A model generated the notes under the pieces. That model was not told the DNA's origin, searched no databases, and saw nothing but the letters and a program-made list of their open reading frames with translations. A DNA stretch of 64,000 nucleotides from Beijerinckiaceae bacterium. Its GTDB lineage: Bacteria > Pseudomonadota > Alphaproteobacteria > Rhizobiales > Beijerinckiaceae. Every line of letters starts with the position of its first letter. Position 1 is the first letter of the stretch. The DNA lies in assembly GCA_019745195.1 (NCBI GenBank), contig JAIETL010000004.1:1-64000 (forward strand), given 5' to 3'. Shown one piece after another: positions 2,194 to 19,029 of the stretch. A program made the translations under genes and the position numbers.

Positions 2194-2436
2194 ATGACAT
2201 ACGCTGATGACGGCTCGCAGCCTGCAAACCCCAAGCTCTTCGAACGACCCGCCGACAATGCTCAAAAAGCGCCTGACGAATGGGTTTCAGGCGACGAGCC
2301 GATGACGGGGGCGCAGGCCTCATATTTGAAGACGCTCTCCGAGCAGGTGAGCCAGCCGGAGCAATTCGACCACACACTCTCGAAGGCGGAAGCGTCCAAA
2401 CGGATCGACTTGCTCAAATCTGCGAAAGGCGGCTGA
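2194..2436 (+). CDS. DUF3072 family small protein, probably SOS-controlled
   Basis: 80 aa. The C-terminal half contains MTGAQASYLKTLSEQ and SKAEASKRIDLL, the conserved core of DUF3072 (short proteins often found near stress genes in alphaproteobacteria; function unknown). The start at 2194 is chosen because AAGG lies 8 nt upstream and because the reading frame before it runs through the LexA box. The N-terminal ~35 residues are polar and probably flexible. SOS control is inferred from the operator, not shown. Confidence 0.75.
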   Translation: MTYADDGSQPANPKLFERPADNAQKAPDEWVSGDEPMTGAQASYLKTLSEQVSQPEQFDHTLSKAEASKRIDLLKSAKGG

Positions 2437-2458
2437 GCCGAGCCGGCAGACGGCGCTG

Positions 2459-2851
2459 TCAACCGGCGAGCCTCGCGATCGCCCAGCCGGCAGCGCCGAT
2501 ATGCCCGAGCGTGATCGCGACCGAGAGCCCGTGCAGCGCCCTGAAGCGCGGCTTGTCGCCGGCATCCGTCGCGCGGTTGATGGCGGGCATCAGGAACTGG
2601 CGGGTCGGCACGGTCGTCGCGGCGATTGCAGCGAGGCCGAGCGCCGCGACGTGATCGGCGCGCGCAAGAAGCGCCGCTGCTGCAGCGGCCGTGACGATGA
2701 CAAAGAGATAAAAATGCGGAAACGCACGGCGGATCGTCGCGCGGGCCATGTCCGCTGGTAGGACCTTCAGCAGGAAGGCGGCGAAGCCGAAGGAAAACAG
2801 CGTCATGCCGCCGAACAGCAGGGCGGCAGTGAGAAGACCTGCGGTCTGCAT
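2459..2851 (-). CDS. DUF4149 family membrane protein
   Basis: 130 aa with four hydrophobic segments (about residues 3-28, 46-64, 65-82, 108-128). The layout, and residues such as the LLKVLPADMAR and PTRQFLMPAIN loops, match the DUF4149 (TMEM205-like) family of unknown function. It lies 12 nt downstream of the FAD/photolyase-like gene on the same strand and is probably the last gene of that operon. The location is the inner membrane. Confidence 0.7.
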   Translation of the reverse strand: MQTAGLLTAALLFGGMTLFSFGFAAFLLKVLPADMARATIRRAFPHFYLFVIVTAAAAAALLARADHVAALGLAAIAATTVPTRQFLMPAINRATDAGDKPRFRALHGLSVAITLGHIGAAGWAIARLAG

Positions 2852-2863
2852 GGGTGTGCTCCG

Positions 2864-4132
2864 TCAGCGTGCCGAGGACAAGGGCCGTCCGTCGGCTGAC
2901 GCGGCGCTCAGCACGTCGGGGATCAGGCGGGCGACCAGCGCCGGGATGCGTTCCTTGACCTTGAAGAAGCCGGCGCTCGCCAGCGGCCAGACCGCCTCGT
3001 CCCAGTCGCGGCGCCATTCCGCGAGGACGATGCCGCGGGCCGCGAGCGCCGGCCGCGCCCTTTCCAGCCAGTCGTGCACGGGGCCGCGCGGGATGAAGGG
3101 TGTGGCGATCTGCGTCGCGCCCGCCCGTTCGGCGAAGCGTGCGACGTCGTCGGGGACGCCCGCCAGGAGACGATCCACAGGGCGCCCCGCGCGCATGGCC
3201 GCATCGGCCAGAGCTTCCGTTTCGATGGCGATGACGGCGTCGGAAACCTCTCGCGGCGAGCGCAGGTGGCTCGCCGACAGCGTCGCAACGGCGCGAATGT
3301 CGAGCCCTGCGAGATCGAAGTCCTCCGTCCGGGCGTCCTCGTCGGTGATCAGGAGCAAGGTCGGACGACTCGTCTGCGGCGGTGTCGGCTCGCGCAGTGG
3401 CTGGAGCGGCGGCAGGCCCTCGGGCTCGAGATGATCGAGGCTCTCCTGCCTGCGGGCGAGCTCGGCCTCGGAGGGCGTGAAGCGCTGTCCGGTATAGGTC
3501 GCGATGTTCCAGGGCTCGGCATGATAGGCCTTGCCGCGCGTGTGCAGGCCCGCGACCCAGCGCCAGCCCAGCGTGTTGGACGCGGCGTCGCCGTCGAGCA
3601 GATGGCGATAGAAGAAATCCGCGCCGAGTCGCCAAGGCAGATCTAGCGTGAAGATCCAGATCGAGGCGAACCACATCCGCGTGTGGTTGTGCAGATAGCC
3701 CGTCTCGACGAGTTCCTGCGCCCAGGCGTCGAAACAGGCGATCCCCGTCTCGCCGGCCTCGGCCGCCTCCACGGCGCGGCGCAGGCGACGGTCGCGCGAG
3801 AGCGCGGCGAGATCGGCGTCGAGACCCTCGACATAAGCGCGCCAGACCTGCGGGCGCAGCTCCAGCCAGCCCTTGAAATAGCTGCGCCAGGACACCTCCT
3901 GGACAAACTTCTCCGCGCCATCGAGACCATGGGCGGCGATGGCCGCAGAGACGAGTTCCTGCTCGGTCACGAGCCGCCGGCGCACCCAGGGCGACAGGCC
4001 GGAAACCGCCTTACGGTTCTCCGGGCCGTAATCGTAATTGCGGCCGGCGGCATAGCGTCGGCCCATGGCAGGCACGAACGCCGCCATCGCCTCGAGCCCC
4101 GCTGCCCGCGTCCCCTGCCAGTGTCGCGCCAT
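2864..4132 (-). CDS. FAD-binding photolyase/cryptochrome-like protein, permuted domain order
   Basis: 422 aa. Residues 40-220 are the alpha-helical FAD-binding domain of the photolyase/cryptochrome superfamily: VSGLSPWVRR (43-52), QEVSWRSYFKGWL (78-90), TGYLHNHTRMWFASIWI (144-160), DGDAASNTLGWRWVAG (180-195). The usual N-terminal alpha/beta antenna domain is absent. Instead residues about 245-400 form an alternating strand/helix region (TLLLITDEDA, IATPFIPRGPV, FFKVKERIPALV) after the FAD domain. DNA repair or blue-light sensing are both possible. GGAGG about 10 nt upstream supports the ATG. It is followed by the DUF4149 gene and preceded by the DCC gene, all on one strand. Confidence 0.75.
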   Translation of the reverse strand: MARHWQGTRAAGLEAMAAFVPAMGRRYAAGRNYDYGPENRKAVSGLSPWVRRRLVTEQELVSAAIAAHGLDGAEKFVQEVSWRSYFKGWLELRPQVWRAYVEGLDADLAALSRDRRLRRAVEAAEAGETGIACFDAWAQELVETGYLHNHTRMWFASIWIFTLDLPWRLGADFFYRHLLDGDAASNTLGWRWVAGLHTRGKAYHAEPWNIATYTGQRFTPSEAELARRQESLDHLEPEGLPPLQPLREPTPPQTSRPTLLLITDEDARTEDFDLAGLDIRAVATLSASHLRSPREVSDAVIAIETEALADAAMRAGRPVDRLLAGVPDDVARFAERAGATQIATPFIPRGPVHDWLERARPALAARGIVLAEWRRDWDEAVWPLASAGFFKVKERIPALVARLIPDVLSAASADGRPLSSAR

Positions 4133-5449: not shown

Positions 5450-6635
5450 TCATGAGGTGTCGATCCTGACGGCGACGATGGTGCGCGGGGCTGTGCCGGG
5501 CACGAAGCGCTCGACGAGGATCATGCGGCCACCGCAGCAGGGGCAAGGACGCCTCCGCTCATCGACCGGATCGGATTGCTCTTCCGAAATCTCTGCTTCA
5601 CGATCTGCCGTCGTTGTGGCCGGCATTGCCGCCGCCATGATCTGCCTGATGCGGGCGATGGTATCGGCGCGCCGGCTGGAGGCGCGTAGGCCGTAATGGC
5701 GGATACGGTCGAAGCCGTCGGGCAGGACGTGAAGCAGGAAGCGGCGGATGGACTCGGGGGCCGTCAGCGTCATGGTCTTGCGCCAGGCCTTGCCGGCGGA
5801 GCGGGCGCGATAGTCCTTCCAGCGGAACGTGACCCCGTGCCTGTCCATGGCAATGATGCGGCTGTTGGCGATGGCGACGCGGTGGGTGTAGCGGGCGAGA
5901 TAAGCCAGGACAGCCTCAGGGCCACCGAATGGACGCTTGGCGTAGACGACCCAGTCGGCCCGGCGCAGCGGCGCCAGCAGGGCGGCGAAGGTATCGGTTT
6001 CGGCGAGCGCGGCGAGATTGCCGTGGAAGGCTCGCCGCCCGGCCGCGTGCGGGGCGGCGAGCCCTTCGAGGAAGAGTCGTCTGAACAGCCGGGAGAGCAC
6101 GCGTACGGGCAGGAAGAAGCCTGGCCTGCACGGGATCCAGCGCGCGCCGTTGGTGCTGAGGCCGCCGCCGGGCGCCATGATGTGGAGACGGAGATGATGG
6201 GTCATCGCCGATCCCCAGGTGTGCAGCACGCTGGTGAAGCCGATGGGGGCGCCGAGATGCCGGGGATCGCTCGCGATGGTGGCGAGCGACGCGGCCGCGG
6301 CCCGGAACAACAGGCCGTAGACCTCGGCCTTGTTCTGGTGGGCGATCACCGCGATCGGCGCCGGCAGGGTGAAGACGAGATGGTGGTAGGCCACGGGCAG
6401 CAGATCGACCTGGCGATCCGCCAGCCAGTCCTTCGCCGCTGCGCCCTGGCATCGCGGGCATAGCCGGTTGCGGCAGGAGTTGTAGGCGATGGCCTCGTGA
6501 TCGCATTCGCTGCAGGCCAAGACATGGCCACCGAGCGCAGCCGTACGGCAGGTCCGGATCGCACCATCACCTTGAGCTGGCCGCGGCTGAGCCGATGACG
6601 CGCGAGATAAGCCTCGCCATGCCGGTTCCGCTGTC
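5450..6635 (-). pseudogene. IS91 family transposase, frameshifted near its N-terminus
   Basis: The frame ending at 5450 encodes the IS91-type zinc-ribbon/HUH transposase: RTCRTAALGGHVLACSECDH, NSCRNRLCPRCQG, VFTLPAPI, SVLHTWG, HHLRLHIMAPGGG, AYLARYTHRVAIAN, FLLHVLPDGFDRIRHYG and a C-terminal CPCCGGRM. The family's N-terminal segment (HGEAYLARHRLSRGQLKVM) lies in another frame at about 6560-6620. It joins the rest if one base is restored near 6565, where two bases replace a codon. The first ~20 residues are also missing. The element is therefore probably inactive. IS91 relatives move by rolling-circle replication and can capture neighbouring DNA. Confidence 0.75.
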
Positions 6636-6895
6636 GATCGCGCGCTGCTCGCAGCATTCGATGACATCGCGAGCCCGCCCGGCCCGCCCGCAGTCGAACA
6701 AGCCTTGCGCCCGGGCGATCAAGAGCGGTGCCGAAAACCGGCGATAATCCGCGTTCTCGAGCCAACGCGGGGCGGTTTCGATTATGGCAACTCCGCCCTC
6801 CAGATCGCCGGTGGCGATTGAGACCTCGCCCCTGAACGCGGTTGCGAGCGCGGCGTAGGGGCGAATTAGCGGTGATCTCGATGGAAACCAGGCGC
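6636..6895 (-). pseudogene. Fragment of a TPR-type protein interrupted at the IS91 junction
   Basis: A frame open for about 85 codons reads YAALATAFRGEVSIATGD, GGVAIIETAPRWLE, FSAPLLIARAQGLFDCG and RARDVIECCEQRAIDSGTG. This helical-repeat pattern (short helices rich in Ala, 'GE..I..GD' turns) is typical of the C-terminal tetratricopeptide region of large ATPase-type transcriptional regulators. No start or stop of its own is seen, and it runs into the IS91 transposase. It is read as the relic of the gene into which, or next to which, the element inserted. The family assignment is tentative. Confidence 0.35.
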
Positions 6896-7109: not shown

Positions 7110-8057
7110 TTACCGCACGCCAGAGATGGTTGAAACAGCCTGATCGAAAATGCTTCGTTCGAGTTCGTGCAATCCCAAAGTGTTGAGATGGGCTAGGGCC
7201 TCAGCGATCCCGGCAGCACCTGGCGGATCGGCCTCGAGCTTATCGTCAGGCTGGTGATCTCTGACGGACGCCGAGGTCGTTTCAGCTTGACCTTCCCAGG
7301 TGCTTCCACCGCCGAAATTGCTGAAATCCAGGGTTTCGAGAAGCAGCAGCAACGTCGCTTTCGCTGTCGCAGACGAGACCGGTATCACCTCTTCGCCTGA
7401 AGTGACGTGGAGCGCGACTTGAAGCGAGCCATGGTCATCATTCGCGTGGCAGGCCGCGAGGAGCCGGGATGGCGCTTTACCTGCGGCTTGTGCTCTCCGG
7501 ACCCAAGGGTCCGTTGAGATGATCTGATCGAGAAGCGGGCGAACAATATCTTTGTCGGACCGATCCGCAGATGGCTGCGACGGGCCTTTCCTCTCTTCAA
7601 TATCTGAGGGAAAGAAATTCTTGCCGCCGACAATAAGTTCGACGGCGAAAACCATTCGATCATCATCTCGAACGCTGAATTTCGGAGGGTTCAAGAACGG
7701 GATGGACTTTCGCTGCACATCGACATGGGCGGCACCGATCGAGGGCGGGTTTCGATAATCCAATCGCTTCGCAAGAATCTTCTGCGCCTGCGACAAGAGA
7801 TCGGCCACATCAGCAGGCACCTGCGACACCCCGGCAGCGAAGATGCTTCCGGTCGCGATCGGTGCGGCTGTGATCGCATCTCGAACCGCGAATTCGAACG
7901 GCTTGATGTCGTCGGAGGTCGGCGACTGTGGTCGCGCGAAATGGTCCGGGCCCGCGTCTATGGCGGCAATTCCAGACCGGTCCACCGAAGGCCTTTGTTG
8001 ACCGAGGTGTTCTGAGGGAGAAACCGCGCTCGGGTCCTGTTTTTGCTGATTTGGCAT
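7110..8057 (-). CDS. Mobilisation-module protein of unrecognised family (paralogue of 15422-16363)
   Basis: 315 aa. The start at 8057 is chosen because GAGG lies 8 nt upstream; the frame is open further but without a ribosome site. After a polar N-terminus (about 70 residues) comes a domain shared with the gene at 15422-16363. Shared elements are an IATGSIFAAG/IASGNLFAGS turn, PPKFSVRDDDRMVFAVELIV against PPVLAFRQEDWMMFAAELIL, and a DPWVRR...LQVALHVTSGEEVIPVS block against DPIVRQ...VRAALHLTADGEPVPLS. No known domain, signal peptide or membrane segment is seen. It lies downstream of the relaxase on the same strand, so a role in conjugation or plasmid biology is inferred from context. Confidence 0.6.
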   Translation of the reverse strand: MPNQQKQDPSAVSPSEHLGQQRPSVDRSGIAAIDAGPDHFARPQSPTSDDIKPFEFAVRDAITAAPIATGSIFAAGVSQVPADVADLLSQAQKILAKRLDYRNPPSIGAAHVDVQRKSIPFLNPPKFSVRDDDRMVFAVELIVGGKNFFPSDIEERKGPSQPSADRSDKDIVRPLLDQIISTDPWVRRAQAAGKAPSRLLAACHANDDHGSLQVALHVTSGEEVIPVSSATAKATLLLLLETLDFSNFGGGSTWEGQAETTSASVRDHQPDDKLEADPPGAAGIAEALAHLNTLGLHELERSIFDQAVSTISGVR

Positions 8058-8300
8058 GATGTTTTCCTCGGTGCGATCAAAAGACGTGGGCCGGACCAGA
8101 TCCTCAGATTCGTTCGGCAGAGGGCCGATGTGACGTTGGACGGGCGAGAAGCGGGTCAGGCACGAAGGCAGGTATGTCACGGCGACCCCATCCGGTCCTT
8201 ACTGAGAGCGGTTCAAACTTCATTGACTGCGCTGCGAAAATGAAACGTCGGTATGGTTGCGGGCTTACAGCAGCCCCTTTCAAGAAGACGCCGACGTCCT

Positions 8301-11300
8301 TCAGATTTCCGGCTCGTCTTTACGGTGCCTGGGGGGAGCTTGAGGGCGGCCCGCTGCTGCTTGACCCGGCGAAACAACTGTCGATCGAGACGGCGGATTG
8401 CCTATCGGCCCCGACTTCCCATCGGTCGTTCTCACAGGGTCTTGCTTTAGAACGTCTGCGCCGGTGCGCTCGCGCGGCACGATGTCATCGACATTCAGCC
8501 CCGGCACGTCGAAAATCCGGGTGCCCCTTGGACGAGATCGTGCTGGGGCCGTTGCCACCGGCTCCACAACGACGTCGATGGGCGGCGGATTGTTCTGGCG
8601 CTTCGGGTCGCTTGGCTGGGCAAGGGAGGGTGCAATGGCCTCTTTCTGAAAGATCGAGCGTATGCGCGCGATTAATCCGGGGCGCTGATCGCTCGCGTCT
8701 TGGCCGGTTTCGGGATTGTTTTTCGATGTCACTGGCGTAGCCGCAATGGCGACGGTCCCTCGAGACGATCCCGAGGTCGAAGCGCTACCCAGTTGGACCG
8801 CCGATATGGGGTTCGGGCTGATCTTCGATGGATCGAGCGGCTTCAGGCGCGCGGCTTGTTGAGGTAAGGGCGACAACATTCCGGTCGTCACAGTAGGTGA
8901 TGTAGCGATTTTCTTTACCGGCTTGTCTACCCGAGTAAGCATCGATTGCGGGGGCCCAACACCATCCTCGGTGTGTCGAGCTGTCTGTTCTTGGCGCAGC
9001 GAAGCCACGTTGGGCTTTCGGTCGTCGATCGCTTCACGCGGAACGTCGGGGTTCACGGCAAATGCGTCGGATCGAAGCGCTTCCAGGAGCGCCTGGCGAT
9101 GGATCGCACGTTTGCGCCGACGCACGCCGGCCGAGTACGCATCCTCATCGTCGATTGCGATTGAGCTGATGGCGCAGGCAGGCGATGGGTCGAACGGAGT
9201 GGAGACGTTCGTTTTTGTTTTCGACGAGCCGATGGGTTTGCGTTCCCTCTCGGCCGACTGTGCACCGATGTGTTGCTGCGCCCGCTCCCTCTCCACAAGC
9301 CCGTCGGCTGCATGAACGTGACGACTGTTTCGTTCAAATGAGAGCCTATCGTTGAGCCTCAGTTTCGCCACCTGGGCGAGCGAGGCCTTGCGGCGCTTCA
9401 CGCCGGTGGAGACATGGGCGCTGATGTCATTGGTTCTTCCGCTACCGAGAGGGCCAGTTTCGGTCAGTGAGATGGTGCTGAGCCGCTCGGCTTCGCGCAC
9501 CCGAATTTCAGCTGCTCGCTCGATCGCCAAAGTGCCATCGGGATCGCGACCGATACCCATCCCTTTCCAATTTGCAGACGAAAGAATTGAAACTGCGGGC
9601 GCCTTTTGTTGCTGATGTCGCTGCATCAGGAACGCTTTCTGCCGTTTCACACCGGTCGAAATGTCTGTGACGATCTCGTCCGCAGGGCTGACTGCGGGCG
9701 TGCTCATCATCGCCAATTCGGAGTTCCTGCGCCGCCATGCCGTTCGGGCGACGTTTCGGGCAGCGCGCGCAATCGGATTGAGCGCCCAGAGGCCAGCCTT
9801 GTCACGCACCACGTTGCGCGCTTCCCGAAGGGTTTTGGACAGGAAGAGCACCGCTGCTTGAATCAGGCGGTGCTCGGTAACGGCGCCGACACGTCGCAGC
9901 TTTTGACCCGCCCGGCGGGACCACGGGGGCCGGGACGTTCGGACATCGATCGCAAAGCCGCTCCCGCGATGGGCGAGGATGCTAGTTCCGATCATGCGCC
10001 CGCCAAACCAGCGCGCACAGGTCTCGACCAACGGCAAGCCATCGAGATGAGCCCACTCCGCGTTCGATAGCGACAAGGGCGTTCGAGCCTGGCGGCGATC
10101 GGGCTTGGGTTGGTCGATGGGCGTCAACCGTATCTGGTCGCGCGACGGCTTGCTTTTGGCGACCCGCGACGTTCGGGACCTGATCTGCGCATCCGTTCGC
10201 GCCTGCATCCGCTGACGAAATGCGACGATCGGATCTTGGGCTTGAGTCCAAGCCAGCACGTCATCGACAAAGTCACTTGGGTTGGCCTTGAGCGGGCGGC
10301 TATTGGCTTCGCGGCGCAGTTTGTCGATCACCCGGTCGATCTGCTTTTGCGAAAGGGTCGGCGATTCCAGATCGCCGCTCTCGGTCGCACCGCGAAAGCT
10401 ACCATGCCGCGAAATTCCGGCTGTACGAAAGCCGTTTCGCGACAAAATACGGCTCGCATCGACGTGGATTCTCAAGCTGACGCGATGGCGCGTACAAGCG
10501 ACGTAGATATCGGAAGAGCCCATCGACGAGAGGTTAGCGACGATGGCGATATCGACGGTCTGACCCTGCGCTGCGTGGTTGGTGCACGCGTAGGCATGTT
10601 GAAGATGGATGGCAGATCCTGAGTTTTTTGCATCCTTGACTGCAAGCTCGCTCACGCGGCCCGACAGCACAATCGGACGTCCGTGATCGTCGACCCGGTC
10701 GAGTTCGAACGTCAGCTGCGGATCGCGCCCGTCATCATGGACCGAGAGCACTGTCGCCACGTCGGAATTGAACACTTCGGCCGCGCGCAGACGCAAGCGA
10801 CGACCGAACATGATACGGTCGCCAGCTCGCAATTCCACCGGGCTCGAGAGCATTTTGGACCCGCGTCCGATCGCCTCGAAACGGATTGATTCTTGGCCGA
10901 GATGCCCCTCTGCGATCAGGGCTTCGCGGACGACGTGATTGAGGGCTTGCACATCCTCGTTTCTGGCGGTGATGAGCAGCCGGCGAGCCAAGTTCTTTGT
11001 CGTCCAGTCGGGATTGGTCCATGTATCAGCATCCAGAAAGGATGCGACACAGGCTGCCAACGTCGTAGAGCGGTCGCGATGAACCGCGATTTCGCCAGCA
11101 TCGTGATAATGGTCGAGGCCGGCAACCGTATCGCCGGAGGCGAAAGCCTCCGATGCGTCGCGCATCCACGACGAAATCTGCCTGCGAATATGGTCGAGAC
11201 GATGCGATCCGAGCAGATCTATCAGTGCCCGCATCGGCGCGCCTCTGGCGACCGGCTGCAACTGACGGGTATCGCCGGTCAAGATCACCTTGGAACCAGC

Positions 11301-13028
11301 GCGGGCTGCCGCTTCGACAAGTATCTGAATATCCCGGCAGCCGGCCATCCCGGCTTCGTCGACGACGATGACGGTGCGGTGATCGATCGCTTCCTGCCCG
11401 GTTTCGATGGCGGTGACCAAGGGTGCGAGCGCTTGGGCATCTGCGAGCGAAACCTGTGCTTCCTGGCCCGCCAGACGTGCTGCTTTCCAAGCCGGTGCTG
11501 CGATCAATACCTTGCGCTGGTCTGCCGTCAGGATCTGCCTGAGCAGCTTCAACACATAAGTCTTGCCGGTGCCGGCGGCACCTTCGGCGATTGTCACGCC
11601 GTCGCGATTGAGCATGTGGCGGACAGCCTCACGCTGCTCGGGACTCGCTGTGCTGCCGCTCAGGATCGATGCGATGAGCGCTTCAGAAGGGGGCGCCCAT
11701 CTTTCGCGCGTAGCAACCGCCGTTTGTAATAGGGCATGCTCGTCACGAATGGCTTGCGCAACCATGAAACGCTGCGGCTCGTGGGAATATCGAGGCAAGG
11801 CCACGAAGTCGGTCTCCTTCGCCTGCGCGGTCTGAAGGATCTCGTCGGCCGTCGATCGTGTCTGCCTCGCCTGGGCCTCGATGCGAAGGATGTCTGCGCG
11901 CGTTACGATGAGGTTGATGTCGGCGTATGCGTCATGACTTCTTGCGACGTGCTGCTCCTGCAAATCCAAGCTGGTCGCAGAGCCAAGCGTCTTGCTCAGC
12001 CGTGCCGACCCGGCCTTGACGCTCGTCCAGATCGCGCCGATGTCGAAGCCGGCTTCAGCCAGTTCGTCATGCCAGGATTGCTGTAGCTGCGTCAGTGGCG
12101 TCGAGACATCCTTTCGATCGCGCGTTGCCTTGGCGGCATAATTCGAAGCTTCCCGATGCTGGGCGCTGTCCAGACCTTTGGCCGCGAGATCTGCGACGAC
12201 GTCCGCCCGCCGCTGGCTGAAAAGCCTTGAGACTTCGATCGGAAAACCTGGAATCGTGATGCCAGGACCATCCTTGGCAAGCTCTGTCTCGATACCAAGC
12301 CGCGCTTTCATCCGATGGACGAGTTCGGCGCGATATAGAGCCGAGCAGGCATTCTTGAAAGTGAGGAGATCTTTGTTTTCGATTGCCCCCACGCGGCCAT
12401 CGTCGCGCAGGCAGAGATTGAACAGGACGGCGTGGCTGTGCAGGTGTGGATGCTTGTCGCGGTTGGTCAGATGTCGATAGACCGCGACGCAGGATTCCGC
12501 TGCGGGTTTGCGAATGCGTCCCTGCGCGCCGCGACGATTGAGAATGAATCCTTGGCGCGCCATCAGACGCAGTGTCGCCTCCACTGCTTCGTCATGGATC
12601 GTCAACATCCGATCGCGCGTTTTTGCGTCCGCTAGGAGTGCAAGAATCGAATACGCTTTCTCGGGAGAGAAGGTGAGATCGTAAGCGACGACATGGGTCG
12701 GCGTCTCCAGGTCCGTCTTCCACCGCCCACGGCGGCCGCGCACCGTTGCGACAGGCCTGATGACGACCTTGCCCGTCTCCAGATCCTTTCCCTGGCCGAG
12801 ACGCTCCACGATGGCGAAGCTTGCGGCATCTCCGTCCCGGAAGCTCCTGAAGGGTCCTCTTTCGCGATGACCATCGGTCGTTTCGGGGCCAGCGAGCCGG
12901 AGCAATGTTCCCAATGAGCCGCCGCGTTCCTCGTAATAGCCGAGGCCCAGATCCTGTCTGTCTTCGCCGACGCGGTTTTCCTTGACCTGGTAATAGGCGA
13001 TGGAGGTGATCGTCGTGATCGTGATCAT
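8301..13028 (-). CDS. MobF-type conjugative relaxase-helicase (TrwC/TraI-like)
   Basis: 1575 aa. The TrwC-type relaxase domain (residues 1-~330) has the N-terminal Tyr pair (Y12, Y13), YY at 31-32 and the metal-binding histidine cluster HPHLHSHAVLFN (193-204). A RecD/TraI-like helicase follows: GAAGTGKT (Walker A, 483-490), VVDEAG (Walker B, 555-560), LTGDTRQLQPV and a late HAYACTNHAAQGQT motif. The last ~650 residues are polar and low-complexity, and carry a thrice-repeated S(T/A)GV(K/R)RxK motif near residues 1121, 1203 and 1296. It would nick oriT and unwind the transferred strand. The start overlaps the stop of the upstream RHH gene (ATGA, 13025-13028), so translation is coupled. Confidence in the family is high; intactness looks good. 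Confidence 0.9.
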   Translation of the reverse strand: MITITTITSIAYYQVKENRVGEDRQDLGLGYYEERGGSLGTLLRLAGPETTDGHRERGPFRSFRDGDAASFAIVERLGQGKDLETGKVVIRPVATVRGRRGRWKTDLETPTHVVAYDLTFSPEKAYSILALLADAKTRDRMLTIHDEAVEATLRLMARQGFILNRRGAQGRIRKPAAESCVAVYRHLTNRDKHPHLHSHAVLFNLCLRDDGRVGAIENKDLLTFKNACSALYRAELVHRMKARLGIETELAKDGPGITIPGFPIEVSRLFSQRRADVVADLAAKGLDSAQHREASNYAAKATRDRKDVSTPLTQLQQSWHDELAEAGFDIGAIWTSVKAGSARLSKTLGSATSLDLQEQHVARSHDAYADINLIVTRADILRIEAQARQTRSTADEILQTAQAKETDFVALPRYSHEPQRFMVAQAIRDEHALLQTAVATRERWAPPSEALIASILSGSTASPEQREAVRHMLNRDGVTIAEGAAGTGKTYVLKLLRQILTADQRKVLIAAPAWKAARLAGQEAQVSLADAQALAPLVTAIETGQEAIDHRTVIVVDEAGMAGCRDIQILVEAAARAGSKVILTGDTRQLQPVARGAPMRALIDLLGSHRLDHIRRQISSWMRDASEAFASGDTVAGLDHYHDAGEIAVHRDRSTTLAACVASFLDADTWTNPDWTTKNLARRLLITARNEDVQALNHVVREALIAEGHLGQESIRFEAIGRGSKMLSSPVELRAGDRIMFGRRLRLRAAEVFNSDVATVLSVHDDGRDPQLTFELDRVDDHGRPIVLSGRVSELAVKDAKNSGSAIHLQHAYACTNHAAQGQTVDIAIVANLSSMGSSDIYVACTRHRVSLRIHVDASRILSRNGFRTAGISRHGSFRGATESGDLESPTLSQKQIDRVIDKLRREANSRPLKANPSDFVDDVLAWTQAQDPIVAFRQRMQARTDAQIRSRTSRVAKSKPSRDQIRLTPIDQPKPDRRQARTPLSLSNAEWAHLDGLPLVETCARWFGGRMIGTSILAHRGSGFAIDVRTSRPPWSRRAGQKLRRVGAVTEHRLIQAAVLFLSKTLREARNVVRDKAGLWALNPIARAARNVARTAWRRRNSELAMMSTPAVSPADEIVTDISTGVKRQKAFLMQRHQQQKAPAVSILSSANWKGMGIGRDPDGTLAIERAAEIRVREAERLSTISLTETGPLGSGRTNDISAHVSTGVKRRKASLAQVAKLRLNDRLSFERNSRHVHAADGLVERERAQQHIGAQSAERERKPIGSSKTKTNVSTPFDPSPACAISSIAIDDEDAYSAGVRRRKRAIHRQALLEALRSDAFAVNPDVPREAIDDRKPNVASLRQEQTARHTEDGVGPPQSMLTRVDKPVKKIATSPTVTTGMLSPLPQQAARLKPLDPSKISPNPISAVQLGSASTSGSSRGTVAIAATPVTSKNNPETGQDASDQRPGLIARIRSIFQKEAIAPSLAQPSDPKRQNNPPPIDVVVEPVATAPARSRPRGTRIFDVPGLNVDDIVPRERTGADVLKQDPVRTTDGKSGPIGNPPSRSTVVSPGQAAAGRPQAPPRHRKDEPEI
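9107..9668 (-). repeat. Three copies of a basic motif in the relaxase tail
   Basis: Within the relaxase C-terminal tail the peptides ISTGVKRQKAFL (about 9630-9668), VSTGVKRRKASL (about 9386-9420) and YSAGVRRRKRAI (about 9107-9142) recur at 80-95-residue intervals in otherwise unrelated sequence. Conserved short basic motifs in a disordered tail suggest repeated binding sites for DNA or a partner such as a coupling protein. Confidence 0.55.
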
Positions 13029-13285
13029 CGAGGTGCCCGCCTCCCGTTGAGAAGGTATCCCGCGATCGTCTCGATCTGTTGATCCACCACCGTCGCGCGC
13101 TGCAGTACCTTCTCGACCGCTTCCGCGAGGATCTGCTCGCGCAGGGCGTTCTCGACAACCTCGGCAGGCGAGCGCCGTCGGAGCTTCGCCAAGCGCTGAA
13201 CGTGATCATGGACCTCGCAGCTCAAAGCGACCCGTAACTCACGCCTCGATCCGGTCCGCGCCGACTCAGTTTCACGGTTTTTCAA
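13025..13285 (-). CDS. Ribbon-helix-helix relaxosome accessory protein
   Basis: 86 aa with a TTG start preceded by a GGGGGAG/AAGG purine-rich site. Residues about 16-50 (ELRVALSCEVHDHVQRLAKL, then SPAEVVENALREQI) show the strand-helix-helix pattern of RHH proteins such as TrwA and TraY, which bind oriT and bend it for the relaxase. The C-terminal 35 residues are helical. It overlaps the relaxase start by four bases and begins just beside the oriT candidate, which fits an oriT-binding, self-regulating accessory protein. Confidence 0.7.
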   Translation of the reverse strand: MKNRETESARTGSRRELRVALSCEVHDHVQRLAKLRRRSPAEVVENALREQILAEAVEKVLQRATVVDQQIETIAGYLLNGRRAPR

Positions 13286-13315
13286 TACCTTGCTCCCCCG
13301 ACCGCCGGTTGGACT

Positions 13316-13340
13316 GCACCCTCGGTGCGTAGGGTGTAAC
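13316..13340 (+). other. oriT: Candidate origin of transfer (oriT) with nic site
   Basis: The plus strand holds a small hairpin, GCACC-CTC-GGTGC (13316-13328), running directly into TGCGTAGGGTGT (13326-13337). In MobF plasmid R388 an equivalent GCACC/GGTGC hairpin runs into TGCGTATTGTCT with nicking after the last T; the F-plasmid nic core is TGCGTGGGGTGT. The match to F is 11 of 12 bases. Nicking is predicted between 13337 and 13338. The relaxase gene would enter the recipient last, as is usual. It lies between the RHH gene and the divergent leading-region gene. Confidence 0.7.
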
Positions 13341-13407
13341 GATCACCTTCTCGGCTCAGGGAGCATCAGGGCAGCAAGGTAATGAAACCTTAATTGTCGG
13401 GCGTCAG

Positions 13408-13424
13408 TCTATGTCAGACATAGA
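13408..13424 (+). promoter_or_regulatory. Palindromic operator before the leading-region gene
   Basis: TCTATGTC-A-GACATAGA is a perfect 8-bp inverted repeat with one central base, 16 bp before the ATG at 13441. Its position at the likely -10 region suggests a repressor site for the leading-region gene or for both divergent genes. Confidence 0.5.
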
Positions 13425-13440
13425 TTATGGAGACCGATCG

Positions 13441-14025
13441 ATGAAGACGAGTTCGAAGCGCGACGTAGCAGATACGGCCAAGGCGGAGGCGCGGGAGGTG
13501 CCGGTTATCCGGCGCAAGGAGTTGGAGCAGACGATCCAGGAACTGCTGACGCAGCCCTCGCCGGTGCTGCTGATGGCCAGGATAGAGACCGAGTATGGTG
13601 CGAAGCTGCATGCGCTAAAGGAAGCCGGCTACGCTGTGCAGGACGTTGCGCAGCACTACATCGAAAAACTCCCCAAATGCACCACCAGGATGAAGAAGAC
13701 GATCAAGGCCATCTTCGAGCAGCTCTTCACCGATCTGGAGAGCGGGAACTGGCGGCCCATTTCCGCTGCGGCAAACCAGCAAGAGCAACAGCAGACGAAG
13801 TCCGGCGACACGCCGGAGGTTGGTTTGGAGAGCGAAGCAGCAAACGAGACGGCTGCAATCGAGCTTGAGGAAAAGCACAAGACTCCTTCCGGCCACCGGG
13901 AGGGCCCCGACGATGAACCGGACGAGCTCGAGACGCTCGAGAAGCAGTTGGTTCGTAACCTTGAGCCTCGAGCTGACGAGACGAACGCCGAGCGGCCCCC
14001 GGTTGATCAGGGCGACGACAAGTGA
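13441..14025 (+). CDS. Leading-region protein with acidic tail, unrecognised
   Basis: 194 aa. The start at 13441 is preferred to the ATG at 13411 because GGAG lies 8 nt upstream and 13411 falls inside a palindrome. Residues about 20-100 are helical (KELEQTIQELLTQ, YGAKLHALKEAGYAVQDVAQ, RMKKTIKAIFEQLF); the ALKEAGYAVQDVAQHYIEK segment could be an HTH-like turn. The last 90 residues are low-complexity and very acidic (EGPDDEPDELETLEKQL). It is the first gene after the predicted nic site. Acidic leading-region proteins can act early in the recipient, but no function can be assigned. Confidence 0.55.
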   Translation: MKTSSKRDVADTAKAEAREVPVIRRKELEQTIQELLTQPSPVLLMARIETEYGAKLHALKEAGYAVQDVAQHYIEKLPKCTTRMKKTIKAIFEQLFTDLESGNWRPISAAANQQEQQQTKSGDTPEVGLESEAANETAAIELEEKHKTPSGHREGPDDEPDELETLEKQLVRNLEPRADETNAERPPVDQGDDK

Positions 14026-14870
14026 GGGTGCAAAACAAGGCGTTCGACACTGACAGCAGGAGCATGTCCGGTAGCTTGGATTCTCACGAGCATTTCGCGC
14101 GCAGCCTCGCACTCGTCGTCGTGGGTCGAAACAAAGATCGCGCGATAACCGAGCGCGCAGTACCCGATCAGAGCCATCACGGATTGCGTCGTCAAGGTCG
14201 TCCGTCTCGGGACAGTGCCACGGATGGCCGAAATCGAGATCAGCATCGTGCCGCCATCGAGATCGAAGGCCAGGTGAAGGAGCGGCGTGCGTTTCAGGAC
14301 GCCAATCGGCCCAGGAATTTTCAACCGTGTTCGGGGGGCCTCGCTCCAACCCTTGGCCGACCAAGTCAGCTTCGCCGAAGGATGGCGTTCCGTGATCAGC
14401 GCTTTGGCTGCCTGAGCGACATGAGCCTGCCAGACACTGTCGCTCGCAGAGCGACCTGGAGCCTGCGATCGTATGGTCCGGCTGTGTTTTTCGAGTTCCC
14501 GCAAACCGGACAACCCGATATCGCCCGCTACCACGCGACGCGCCGCAGCAAGAGCGCCGTCGTGATCGCGCCTGGCCCATCCCGCCAATGCCAGTACGGA
14601 ATCGATCGGGGCAGTCTGCAACGCGCGCCCCAAGTCTGGATCGCCGATCTCGACGTCCAGAGCAAACCGCGCAGCGCGAATGAGACGCTGCACGACCTGC
14701 ATCTTGCCGCCGATCTTGATTGCAAACGACCGGTAGGCCTCTTCGCTCGGCCCGCCCGAAACATCGAGATGGCGCATCGCTGCCTCGGCATACCCGAACC
14801 AGGCGCCTGCCGTCGCAAGATGTCGCCCCGCGTGAACCGTCCGCTCGTTGATGACGACGCCTCCATCCAT
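14007..14870 (-). CDS. Unrecognised helical protein of the mobilisation module
   Basis: 287 aa from the ATG at 14870; in-frame ATGs at 14888 and 14906 are also possible but would overlap the divergent gene starting at 14887. The first ~120 residues are helical and well ordered (AGAWFGYAEAAMRHLD, KMQVVQRLIRAARFAL, PIDSVLALAGWARRDHDGAL). The second half is beta-rich (LLHLAFDLDGGTMLISI, TQSVMALIGYCALGYRAIFV, EMLVRIQATG). No known domain was recognised. The 3' end overlaps the convergent leading-region gene by 19 bp. Codon structure favours this strand over the long antisense frame. Confidence 0.5.
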   Translation of the reverse strand: MDGGVVINERTVHAGRHLATAGAWFGYAEAAMRHLDVSGGPSEEAYRSFAIKIGGKMQVVQRLIRAARFALDVEIGDPDLGRALQTAPIDSVLALAGWARRDHDGALAAARRVVAGDIGLSGLRELEKHSRTIRSQAPGRSASDSVWQAHVAQAAKALITERHPSAKLTWSAKGWSEAPRTRLKIPGPIGVLKRTPLLHLAFDLDGGTMLISISAIRGTVPRRTTLTTQSVMALIGYCALGYRAIFVSTHDDECEAAREMLVRIQATGHAPAVSVERLVLHPHLSSP

Positions 14871-14886
14871 GAACAGGAGACCTACC

Positions 14887-15351
14887 ATGCCCAGCCATAG
14901 CGACAATGATCAAAGCAAAGTTCGACCGCGCCTGACGTTGCTCGACGACCGGTTGCAGCCAGATGACAGAAGTGAAGCCCAGCTTTCGAAACGACAGACT
15001 CGTATCGTAGAGAACGAGGATCAACCCGACGATCTCACCGATCACGAGCTGCGGCTGAAACTGTCCGACATGGCCGGGCAAATTTACCTGAGGGGATGGC
15101 ATCGCAATGTCGCGATGCTGACACCAGCGGAAGCAGCCGTCATCGCAACTGCCATCGTCGGCCTTGCGACGTCCGACGACGCCATAAAGCTCTACGACGA
15201 CGTACTCGAACAGAACGAGGCGACGATCGGTGCTCTGCTGGACAGCATCAAGACGGCCGCTAATCGCATGCAACAGGACATCGAAGCGGCGGATCGTCGA
15301 TACCATAAGCACGAAGCGGAGGCGTGGGCGGGTCAGCCCGGCTCTGCTTGA
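14887..15351 (+). CDS. Small unrecognised protein, divergent from the 14007-14870 gene
   Basis: 154 aa. AGGAGA lies 7 nt before the ATG at 14887, which decides this start over one further upstream. The N-terminal 50 residues are charged. Residues about 53-140 are three long amphipathic helices (DHELRLKLSDMAGQIYLRG, TPAEAAVIATAIVGLATS, TIGALLDSIKTAANRMQQDI) with a His-rich end (YHKHEAEAW), which could support coiled-coil pairing. Only 16 bp separate its start from that of the divergent gene. Function unknown. Confidence 0.5.
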   Translation: MPSHSDNDQSKVRPRLTLLDDRLQPDDRSEAQLSKRQTRIVENEDQPDDLTDHELRLKLSDMAGQIYLRGWHRNVAMLTPAEAAVIATAIVGLATSDDAIKLYDDVLEQNEATIGALLDSIKTAANRMQQDIEAADRRYHKHEAEAWAGQPGSA

Positions 15352-15421: not shown

Positions 15422-16363
15422 TCACGCCGATATCGCGGATCTCGGCGCCGATACGCGAAGGTTCGCCTGTTGCTGAATGCCGACGGCCAGGCAATCCAAG
15501 CCAAGTAGGCGCAGGTAGCGCTGGACTGGGCGAATCAGCGCCGCGCGTTGCCCGTCATTGGCAAGTTGACGTTGCGCGATGGCGGCCCGAGCCGTCGCCG
15601 ACGAAGGGACGGGGAAAGCGCCATCGCGATGAGCCGTCAGCCCGGTTTTGCGATTGTAGTTGGCGCTCCGCAGCAGAACGCAGAGAACGGCCATAACCGT
15701 CGTGGGCGAGAGAGGAACCGGCTCGCCATCGGCCGTCAGGTGTAATGCGGCTCGAACAACACCTCGGCCACGCGGCAGGTGCGCCGATACAAGCTCCCAA
15801 GAAACTTTCTTCATAGTGGCCCGGCTTTGCCGGACAATGGGGTCAGTCTCGATAATGCTTGCGACATAAGTATCCACAACGCCGCATCGCAAAGCCCTCC
15901 GGGCGGTTTTGTCACGCGCTCCAAAGATCGGAAGCCCCTTGAGAATGAGCTCGGCAGCAAACATCATCCAGTCCTCCTGCCGGAACGCTAATACAGGTGG
16001 GCTGGGTAGTGGCAGAGGCCTCTCCTGTGCTTTCACCAGGATGTCGAGGGGCAATTCACCCTCGATATTAAACGAATAGCTCAGCGCACGGACAGCACCC
16101 TCCAGGGCGATGCGGGCATATGTCTGGGCTTGCCTTGGGGAGCCCGCAAACAGATTTCCTGAAGCAATCGGTCGTCCATCGGCGCCGTTGAAGATCGTAT
16201 AGGTGAAAGGCCTCAGTTTGGAACTGGATCGCTCGGCGCTGCCAACAGAGCAGACGTTACCAGTTGATCTCGCACATCTCAGTGACTGACAAAATTGTGA
16301 CGAGACTTCAACTGTGTTCTCATCCGCAGAAATCTGGCCCTTGCTCGATCGAATGCTTTTCAT
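15422..16363 (-). CDS. Mobilisation-module protein of unrecognised family (paralogue of 7110-8057)
   Basis: 313 aa. The start at 16363 has GGAG 8 nt upstream. The first ~70 residues are polar. Residues about 72-250 match the gene at 7110-8057 in order and spacing (FAAELIL, DPIVRQSRATMKK, VRAALHLTADGEPVPLSPTTVMAVLCVLL). The C-terminal ~60 residues differ: here they are basic and helical (TARAAIAQRQLANDGQR). No recognised motif. Both copies sit on the same strand at the two edges of the mobilisation block, which suggests related but distinct jobs. Confidence 0.55.
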   Translation of the reverse strand: MKSIRSSKGQISADENTVEVSSQFCQSLRCARSTGNVCSVGSAERSSSKLRPFTYTIFNGADGRPIASGNLFAGSPRQAQTYARIALEGAVRALSYSFNIEGELPLDILVKAQERPLPLPSPPVLAFRQEDWMMFAAELILKGLPIFGARDKTARRALRCGVVDTYVASIIETDPIVRQSRATMKKVSWELVSAHLPRGRGVVRAALHLTADGEPVPLSPTTVMAVLCVLLRSANYNRKTGLTAHRDGAFPVPSSATARAAIAQRQLANDGQRAALIRPVQRYLRLLGLDCLAVGIQQQANLRVSAPRSAISA

Positions 16364-16561
16364 GGTTGGTCTCCACCGAACGGCGAGCCCGAGGACGGCG
16401 CTCATAAGACAGGATCGTCTGCAGATCGACCGCTTTGCGTGACGGGCCGGGCTTGCCTTAAATCCTCACGCATTCGATCTCTTTTGGCTCGACACGGTGT
16501 TAAACTTGCTGCTTCCAATTTGAGCGGCAGCGATGCAAAAGCGAAACGGGCCAGGTGTGAA

Positions 16562-17973: not shown

Positions 17974-18195
17974 CGCATACTAACCCCGCCGTCTGTATGC
18001 ATCATGAGTGCGAGATTATCGCTTGGGAAGGTGACGATCGCGACTTTCGCGAAGTTTTCAACGACTTGGTTAGCTCGGCGATGGGAAGTTTGCACCTGAC
18101 GTGCAAGGCCGGGCCTTCACGCGACGTGCGCTGACGTTGCCCCTCGGGCTTGATCCGTTTTGAAGTTCGTTCTGACCCATTGAGAGAACCAGAAC

Positions 18196-18462
18196 ATGAA
18201 GCGCAGCCGCTTCTTGGAAGAGGAGGTCATCGCGATCCTGAAAGAACAGGAAGCGGGTGTCTCGGTCGCCGATCTCTGCCGCAAGCACGGTGTGAGCGAC
18301 GCCAGCATTTACAGATGGAAGGCGAAGTTTGGCGGGATGGACGTGTCGGAGGCCAGACGCCTTCGAACGCTGGAAGACGAAAACGCCAATCTGAAGCGAA
18401 TTCTGGCCGATGCGATGCTCGACAATGCCGCGCTGAAGGATCTGCTGGGAGAGAAATGGTGA
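18196..18462 (+). CDS. IS3 family (IS407-group-like) transposase OrfA
   Basis: 88 aa. HTH of OrfA (FLEEEVIAILKEQEAGVSVA, CRKHGVSDASIYRWKAKFGG) followed by a leucine-zipper helix (LRTLEDENANLKRILADAML) and the usual DLLGEKW end. It looks full length. OrfB starts in the -1 frame at the overlap (about 18459), the arrangement used for programmed frameshifting in IS3 elements. Confidence 0.85.
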   Translation: MKRSRFLEEEVIAILKEQEAGVSVADLCRKHGVSDASIYRWKAKFGGMDVSEARRLRTLEDENANLKRILADAMLDNAALKDLLGEKW

Positions 18463-18948
18463 CGCCCGCTGCCGAGCGGAAAGCTGTCGCGCATCGCGTG
18501 GAGCATCACGCGATGAGCGAACGGCGGGCATGTAAAGCCATCGGCTGCTGCCGCATGACCGTGCGATATCGATCCGCGCGCCCTGCGGGATCGCATGATC
18601 GCGATTGCCGGCGAACGCCGACGCTTTGGCTATCGGCGTCTGCATATCCTGCTCAAACGCGAAGGCCATGTCTTGAACCACAAGCGGCTCCTCCGCCTCT
18701 ATCGCGAGGAAAAGCTGGCGGTGCGTCGGCGTGGCGGGCGTAAAAGGGCCATCGGCACAAGAGCGCCCATCCTGGTTCCGCTCAGGCCAAACGAGCGCTG
18801 GTCTCTCGACTTCGTCTCCGATCAGTTCACCGATGGCCGCCGCTTCCGGATCCTGGCCATCGTGGATGACTGCACGCGCGAGAACCTGGCGCTAGTCGCC
18901 GACACCTCGCTGTCTGGCCTTACGATCCAAACTCAATCAGCGCCCTGA
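18459..18948 (+). pseudogene. IS3 family OrfB, frameshifted and 3'-truncated
   Basis: OrfB starts normally (VTPAAERKAVAHRVEHH, CRMTVRYRS) but its reading frame shifts at about 18,565-18,590. It continues as RMIAIAGERRRFGYRRLH, VNHK-like and RWSLDFVSDQFTDGRRFRI, up to DDCTRENLALVADTSLSGL, where homology ends. The last ~100 residues, including the final catalytic Asp/Glu block of the DDE domain and the right inverted repeat, are missing. Dead element. Confidence 0.8.
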
Positions 18949-19029
18949 GATTGCTACGATTGGTTGATCATCGATCCCGTTCATCGCGTTGCGCCGGTTT
19001 CTCGAGCGTGGTGATCCGGGACTTCCCAA

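Follow-up and report, generated by a model that had tools for sequence, protein, structure and literature searches.

The question raised by this locus is whether a short hairpin in the gap upstream of a MobF relaxase gene marks the nick site of an origin of transfer (oriT) served by that relaxase. The window, that is, the whole stretch of 64,000 nucleotides that was analysed, carries the following features around the hairpin; the module is also present in two genomes of the same genus, G011 and, on a short contig, G020.

8301–13028, minus strand: MobF relaxase-helicase, 1575 aa, overlapping the accessory gene by 4 bases
13025–13285, minus strand: small accessory gene, 86 aa, TTG start, in the TrwA position; weakly RHH-like
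13280–13301, plus strand: left arm (22 nt) of an inverted repeat, overlapping the accessory gene in the region of its TTG start
13286–13440, no strand: predicted oriT region, intergenic, 155 bp long and flanked by the likely starts of two divergent genes
13316–13328, plus strand: predicted nic hairpin, arms GCACC (13316–13320) and GGTGC (13324–13328), loop CTC
13326–13337, plus strand: predicted nic core TGCGTAGGGTGT; 13324–13337 correspond to R388 positions 12–25
13337–13338, plus strand: predicted nick T13337/A13338, from alignment to R388 and F
13366–13387, plus strand: right arm (22 nt) of the inverted repeat, pairing with 13280–13301
13408–13424, plus strand: palindrome TCTATGTC-A-GACATAGA, before the leading-side gene
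13441–14025, plus strand: first leading-side gene, 194 aa, in the StbA position, matching no Pfam or NCBIfam family
14007–14906, minus strand: conserved module gene, function not assigned, 62% identical to that of G011
14848–15351, plus strand: small leading-side gene, with a similar frame in G020
15422–16405, minus strand: conserved module gene, function not assigned

Read directly, the sequence GCACC-CTC-GGTGC at 13316–13328 has five of five perfect pairs and a 3-base loop and leads into a predicted nic core, as the preliminary description of 13316–13340 had proposed. The 3′ arm forms the beginning of the core TGCGTAGGGTGT (overlap 13326–13328), and after 13328 the sequence continues with GTAGGGTGT up to 13337 and then AACG. 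The same description likened the site to those of two plasmids, and both likenesses are borne out by the plasmid records. R388 (IncW, relaxase TrwC; NC_028464) reads GCACC-GAAA-GGTGC GTATTGTCT ATAG, with a stem identical to that of the window in 10 of 10 bases, and the two have GGTGCGTA in common. F (relaxase TraI; NC_002483) reads TTTTTGCGTGGGGTGTGG, or TGCGTGGGGTGT GG with the following bases, and agrees with the window in 11 of 12 core bases, the sole difference being at position 19; F has no such hairpin before its core and its oriT lies ~26 kb from traI. The corresponding sequence of R46 (IncN) is TGCGTTAGGTGT ATAG.

The window differs from R388 in its loop, of 3 rather than 4 bases, and in having G at positions 20, 21 and 24. 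Of these, G21 and G24 are F-like, whereas R388 has T21 and C24. The sections of PMC4176350 drawn on here report that positions 12–25 are essential in R388, that position 26 must be a purine and position 20 is free, that GTGT at 22–25 is the rule for most MOBF plasmids and that TrwC mobilises G24 sites poorly. The window keeps G17, T18 and T23, which R388 needs, has a purine (A13338) at position 26 and, as in most MOBF plasmids, GTGT at positions 22–25. Since TrwC is poor on G24 sites in that account, R388 should be a poor helper relaxase for the window site, and with G21 and G24 departing from T21 and C24 we would not expect R388's own relaxase to use it well. In the relatives L002, L003, L022, L026, L088 and L006 the predicted nick is followed by C instead of a purine, and the purine rule of R388 is therefore not general here.

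The surroundings of the site are also those of R388: the accessory and relaxase genes lie together on one side and face a divergent gene across the gap, and the relaxase gene is predicted to enter last. The gap is 13286–13440 since 13441, and not 13411, is the most likely start of the downstream gene, as judged from the starts in relatives and a ribosome-binding site. The site had been placed between an RHH accessory gene and a leading-region gene; the position stands, but the RHH assignment is only weak, the accessory gene matching Pfam PF07704 with E 5e-4, below that model's cut-off. This gene occupies the place of TrwA in R388, which in a Komagataeibacter plasmid is taken by a protein annotated as RHH. 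The 194-aa protein across the gap resembles proteins in the StbA position of related plasmids only marginally (best E 0.009); unlike in R388, the next leading-side genes match no Pfam/NCBIfam family and no StbB-like gene was recognised. A small gene followed by mobF, facing another small gene of divergent orientation on the far side of the gap, is the arrangement in 10 of 14 named plasmid loci, the other four comprising two that differ in detail, one that differs and one that is unannotated. R388 and R46 have the same layout plus an inserted coupling-protein gene, which the window does not have between its accessory gene and relaxase.

Two repeats accompany the site. A 22-nt inverted repeat (86%), absent from the preliminary description, brackets it, and none of 300 simulated pairs scored as high for the window; over 23 sites the corresponding uncorrected values are 0.007 in R388 and at least 0.143 at the other 21. 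This repeat was not seen at the sites of the nearest relatives. The palindrome at 13408–13424 is mostly kept in G011 (L005) and partly in G020 (L063), and is a possible operator of the leading-side gene.

With up to three mismatches allowed, the 22-base frame 13316–13337 has a single occurrence, an exact one, in its own 5.4 Mb genome, where the pattern read backwards also has one match within three mismatches. The 12-mer alone is unremarkable (three matches at two mismatches in the window against 2.28 expected). Within one mismatch of the F core there is one match in the window against 0.18 per simulated window, and a near-F core joined to a 5-bp hairpin was found in none of 60 simulated windows. 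The DNA folding energy of the stretch is ordinary, with z = −1.37 and 21 of 200 shuffles folding equally well. Covariation in the hairpin is weak, with one pair changed on both sides and 58 of 500 shuffles as high, as counted on 15 of the 23 sites, R388 and G020 being left out for their 4-nt loops, which were shifted by the aligner, and L071, L072, L085, L091, L093 and R46 for their different stem lengths.

Conservation upstream of homologous relaxases had been named at the outset as the check on this site, and its outcome favours an oriT. We scanned the DNA upstream of the relaxase in 61 MobF loci, on the strand opposite to the relaxase gene, calling a score of at least 15.5 strong and a locus core only where all core positions were present with a poor hairpin. 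Hairpin and core were found in 17 of the 61 loci, a sample that includes close kin and a test that is not fully independent, since the scoring consensus was shaped on sites in some of the loci. The core alone was found in 4 more, and 40 were below threshold, 35 of them outside the window's 14-row group in the tree described below. The controls reached 15.5 in 1 of 1220 shuffles and in none of 61 same-strand scans. When the window, the pattern-found loci L026, L037 and L044 and the yardsticks R388, R46 and F are excluded, 12 of 54 loci are strong. Scan ranges were 0.7–1.0 kb, except for R388, R46 and L037, where they were 2.7–2.9 kb because sites there were already known to lie farther. L008 was placed in the core-only class by hand, its core being found by regular expression where another place scored higher, and G020 (L015/L063) stands outside the 61 loci because its relaxase is cut off. 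R46 falls below threshold at 14.6 and L094 has a hairpin with 10 of 12 core positions; the DNA upstream of traI in F is also below threshold, a miss by design given the distance of its oriT. Within the window's group the loci below threshold are L089, with 11 of 12 core bases and no good hairpin, L092, L095, L096 and L097.

Hairpin and core occur at the same place and polarity in the same-genus relatives, in named Methylobacterium/Methylorubrum plasmids and in R388. Judging by the plasmid kin of its relatives, the host is presumably an alphaproteobacterium, as the preliminary description had it. The plasmids p2METDI, pNYY1_6 and C14 unnamed2 share with the window the hairpin, core, place, polarity and small upstream gene; they differ in having C after the predicted nick, relaxases ~34% identical to that of the window over 55–57% of the protein, and tyrosine pairs 72 residues apart against 19 in the window. 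Closer to the window, the G011 relaxase is 66% identical over residues 1–1140 and that of G020 57% identical along 95 residues. Three comparisons of the gap gave identical columns in 23/24, 22/24 and 23/24 of the site, whereas the rest of the gap had 72/128, 61/129 and 64/129 (47–56%; Fisher 1.3e-4, 3.4e-5 and 8.3e-6 in turn); the site has been retained and its flanks have diverged.

A tree of the 61 relaxase domains, in which several site-less rows are long branches of unsure placement, has the site in three groups, one of which includes R388. The window's group with the Methylobacterium-type plasmids (14 rows) has 8 strong, 1 core only and 5 without the site; a second group of 14 rows, most of them from the family of the host, has 7 strong, 3 core only and 4 without; and the R388/F group has the site in 2 of 14. 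None of the 18 rows across the midpoint root has it. The window relaxase pairs with that of G011 (100/100), and its relaxase domain is 39 and 24% identical to those of L026 and L037, respectively. Hairpin and TGCGTRNNGTGT are found in three MobF groups with widely divergent relaxase domains.

The relaxase frame is complete. The protein scores 166.6 bits against the curated MobF model NF041492 (cut-off 100) and 164.7 bits against the TrwC domain PF08751 (cut-off 25), and aligns with the solved TrwC, pKM101 and F (TraI) relaxase structures. The motif II aspartate and HUH histidines (D117, H186, H197 and H199) are invariant in a three-protein alignment, and a helicase domain lies behind the relaxase domain (PF13604 at 461–650, with related AAA/helicase matches). 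Differences from G011 in the relaxase domain are 0.21/0.16/0.52 by codon position, by which measure the catalytic part shows the pattern of purifying selection; identity is only 37% in the C-terminal part. What has been observed directly is the sequence, present as a single copy in the genome, the repeated occurrence of the site next to MobF relaxases in a constant position and polarity, and a relaxase that is intact and has its family's residues. On this comparative evidence 13316–13337 is in all likelihood the nic region of the oriT of a MobF-type mobilizable element, and very probably a good fresh example of a well-known type of site.

The oddest feature of the locus is the wide spacing of the tyrosine pairs of the relaxase. 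The YY pairs of the window are at residues 12 and 31 (encoded within 12900–13028), a spacing of 19. Among 14 hand-picked sequences the spacing is also 19 in G011 and G020, 72 in four Methylobacterium-type loci, 12–17 in four others, 8 in R388 and R46 and 7 in F, the wider spacing being due to an insert between the pairs (L002, L003, L026 and L088 among the loci compared). We found no discussion of this variation in the literature searched, a part of what is published. Structure prediction of residues 1–345 from a three-row alignment gave a mean pLDDT of 40.8 and was discarded. No confirmed relative emerged when the genome collection was scanned with a protein pattern of the relaxase.

From the DNA side, the exact pattern was searched in a collection of one genome for each of 84,980 species and gave 18 sites. 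Three adjoin MobF (L026, L037 and L041); that of L035 has a sequence common to two MobF-adjacent sites, and the DNA examined ends before the expected gene. The other 14 have no MobF in the flanking DNA examined (at most 8 kb), and 11 of them lie under stop-free frames of >150 codons; the L037 and L041 sites also lie under such frames, which therefore do not sort the sites. A degenerate pattern in 397 genomes of the order gave 4 sites in 3 genomes: the window's own, one in G246 beside MobF and two in G337 without MobF in the DNA examined. The backward pattern had no match in the 397 genomes, and neither pattern was found in viral contigs. As the letters match many MobF-less places they are not specific at the scale of the collection; letters and place together are. 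The two G337 copies (L064 9858; L065 2751) have the site GCACT-CGA-AGTGCGTGTGGTGT with a common tail, and the L065 site comes after a long frame that by eye resembles a tyrosine recombinase. The 60-base site and flanks are shared by L035, L037 and L041, whose contigs carry the labels Thauera, Ferrovibrio and a betaproteobacterium, a likeness of sequence that suggests one widely shared MobF element.

The many MobF-less places could mean that the resemblance to R388 and F arose by chance and that the real oriT is elsewhere in the element. Such a reading gains from the Ptw plasmid, the oriT of which is used by TrwC although its authors, in the portion of PMC4853378 consulted, found nothing like the R388 nic in it, so that resemblance is not required of an oriT. 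It is made extremely unlikely by position, polarity and conservation beside MobF relaxases, which far exceed the shuffles. The hairpin might also be a regulatory or termination element of divergent promoters and not a nick site: it is flanked by the start codons of divergent genes, of which the right-hand one is preceded by a palindrome. Yet no terminator-like or sigma-70-like site was found in 13200–13560, an Rfam search of the site gave no family at gathering score (its lone match was far below it), and the conserved letters extend beyond the hairpin through the nic core with one polarity relative to the relaxase. We consider this explanation highly improbable.

More weight attaches to the proposal that the site is a true oriT by descent in an element that no longer moves, that is, a mobilization module stranded in the chromosome or a large replicon. 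The 169 kb contig of the window has no match to PF10412 (coupling protein), PF03135 (VirB4) or the tyrosine integrase model PF00589; the module is flanked by an IS91-type gene (5450–6667) and an IS3-like stretch (~18130–18950); and the divergence of the C-terminal part of the relaxase from that of G011 points the same way. Against this are the complete relaxase frame with its codon pattern in the catalytic part, the retention of the site amid drifting flanks, and the coupling-protein and VirB4 matches on other contigs of the same genome. We regard a stranded module as possible, though rather doubtful.

If 13316–13337 is, as we prefer, the nic region of an oriT, its use can be pictured by analogy with R388 and F. 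The relaxase would recognise the proximal arm GGTGC in double-stranded form together with the GTAGGGTGT after it; strand melting would follow, and the hairpin and a GTGT U-turn (13334–13337) would bring the 13337/13338 bond into the HUH active site. A13338 would become linked to one of the tyrosines in the first YY pair and the plus strand would leave rightward, the leading-side gene entering first and the relaxase gene last as in R388, after which the second YY pair would rejoin the ends. More speculatively, the accessory protein may bind the bracketing inverted repeat and act as a repressor of its own operon. A coupling protein and a type IV channel would have to be provided in trans for transfer, because the models used detected neither VirB4 nor a coupling protein nor a tyrosine integrase on the contig. 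A joint reading, which we offer tentatively and think unlikely to hold in full, is that a subset of MobF relaxases has its tyrosine pairs pushed apart by a variable insert and still acts on an R388/F hybrid nic site. With similar reserve, the first cut and final rejoining could perhaps be carried by a segment that is flexible or folds on its own; and it is conceivable, at about the same level of doubt, that the window relaxase serves a channel-less element in which the inverted repeat is the operator of the accessory protein. The variation in YY-pair spacing deserves a structure.

As to the kind of element, the part common to the window and G011 is ~7.1–17.5 kb, of lower G+C than most of the window. 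Two genes of unassigned function, at 7110–8180 and 15422–16405, bracket the module, and their middle parts look alike by eye. G011 has a recombinase next to tRNA-Glu whose PF00589 match falls just short of the cut-off and whose end is ~6.6 kb away from the relaxase gene; a copy at the same tRNA-Glu in G017 is 96% identical over 2.2 kb (G011:C1 around 3223157; G017:C8 around 107550). The tRNA-Glu is perhaps an integration hot spot in two species, to judge from these copies. A 16-nt exact repeat links the recombinase start to a place 50.6 kb further on, and comparison with the tRNA-Glu sites of relatives gave no tRNA-end copy or resumed synteny for the far end of the element in the 140 kb of G011 read. 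Plasmid DNA searches of both flanks had IS elements and metabolic genes, not the module, among the best matches listed. An integrative mobilizable element (IME) is plausible for the window. A 2017 review, in the part used (PMC5704250), knows of no canonical IME with MobF, and the part used of a 2021 study (PMC8627217) lists MOBF-carrying IMEs in Mesorhizobium, so that an IME in the window would not be new in kind. The latter are likewise relaxase-bearing and without their own channel in that account; they are mostly Ti-like traACD loci, whereas in the window no integrase match or att site was found.

The locus provides a concrete predicted nick site for the MobF branch that includes the Methylobacterium-type plasmids, for which we found no oriT mapping in the literature searched, subscription papers lying mostly outside it. 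The site may also aid oriT annotation: pNYY1_6 has it, yet a plasmid database types this plasmid as non-mobilizable. The window's genome has a second MobF relaxase of a different branch (L024, G000:C29:49728-50591), with no scoring site upstream and a TrwB-type coupling-protein match just before it. Elsewhere in the window, at 2262–4132, a photolyase FAD-binding frame overlaps another long frame on the same strand, and a photolyase-type gene may be split or frame-shifted there.
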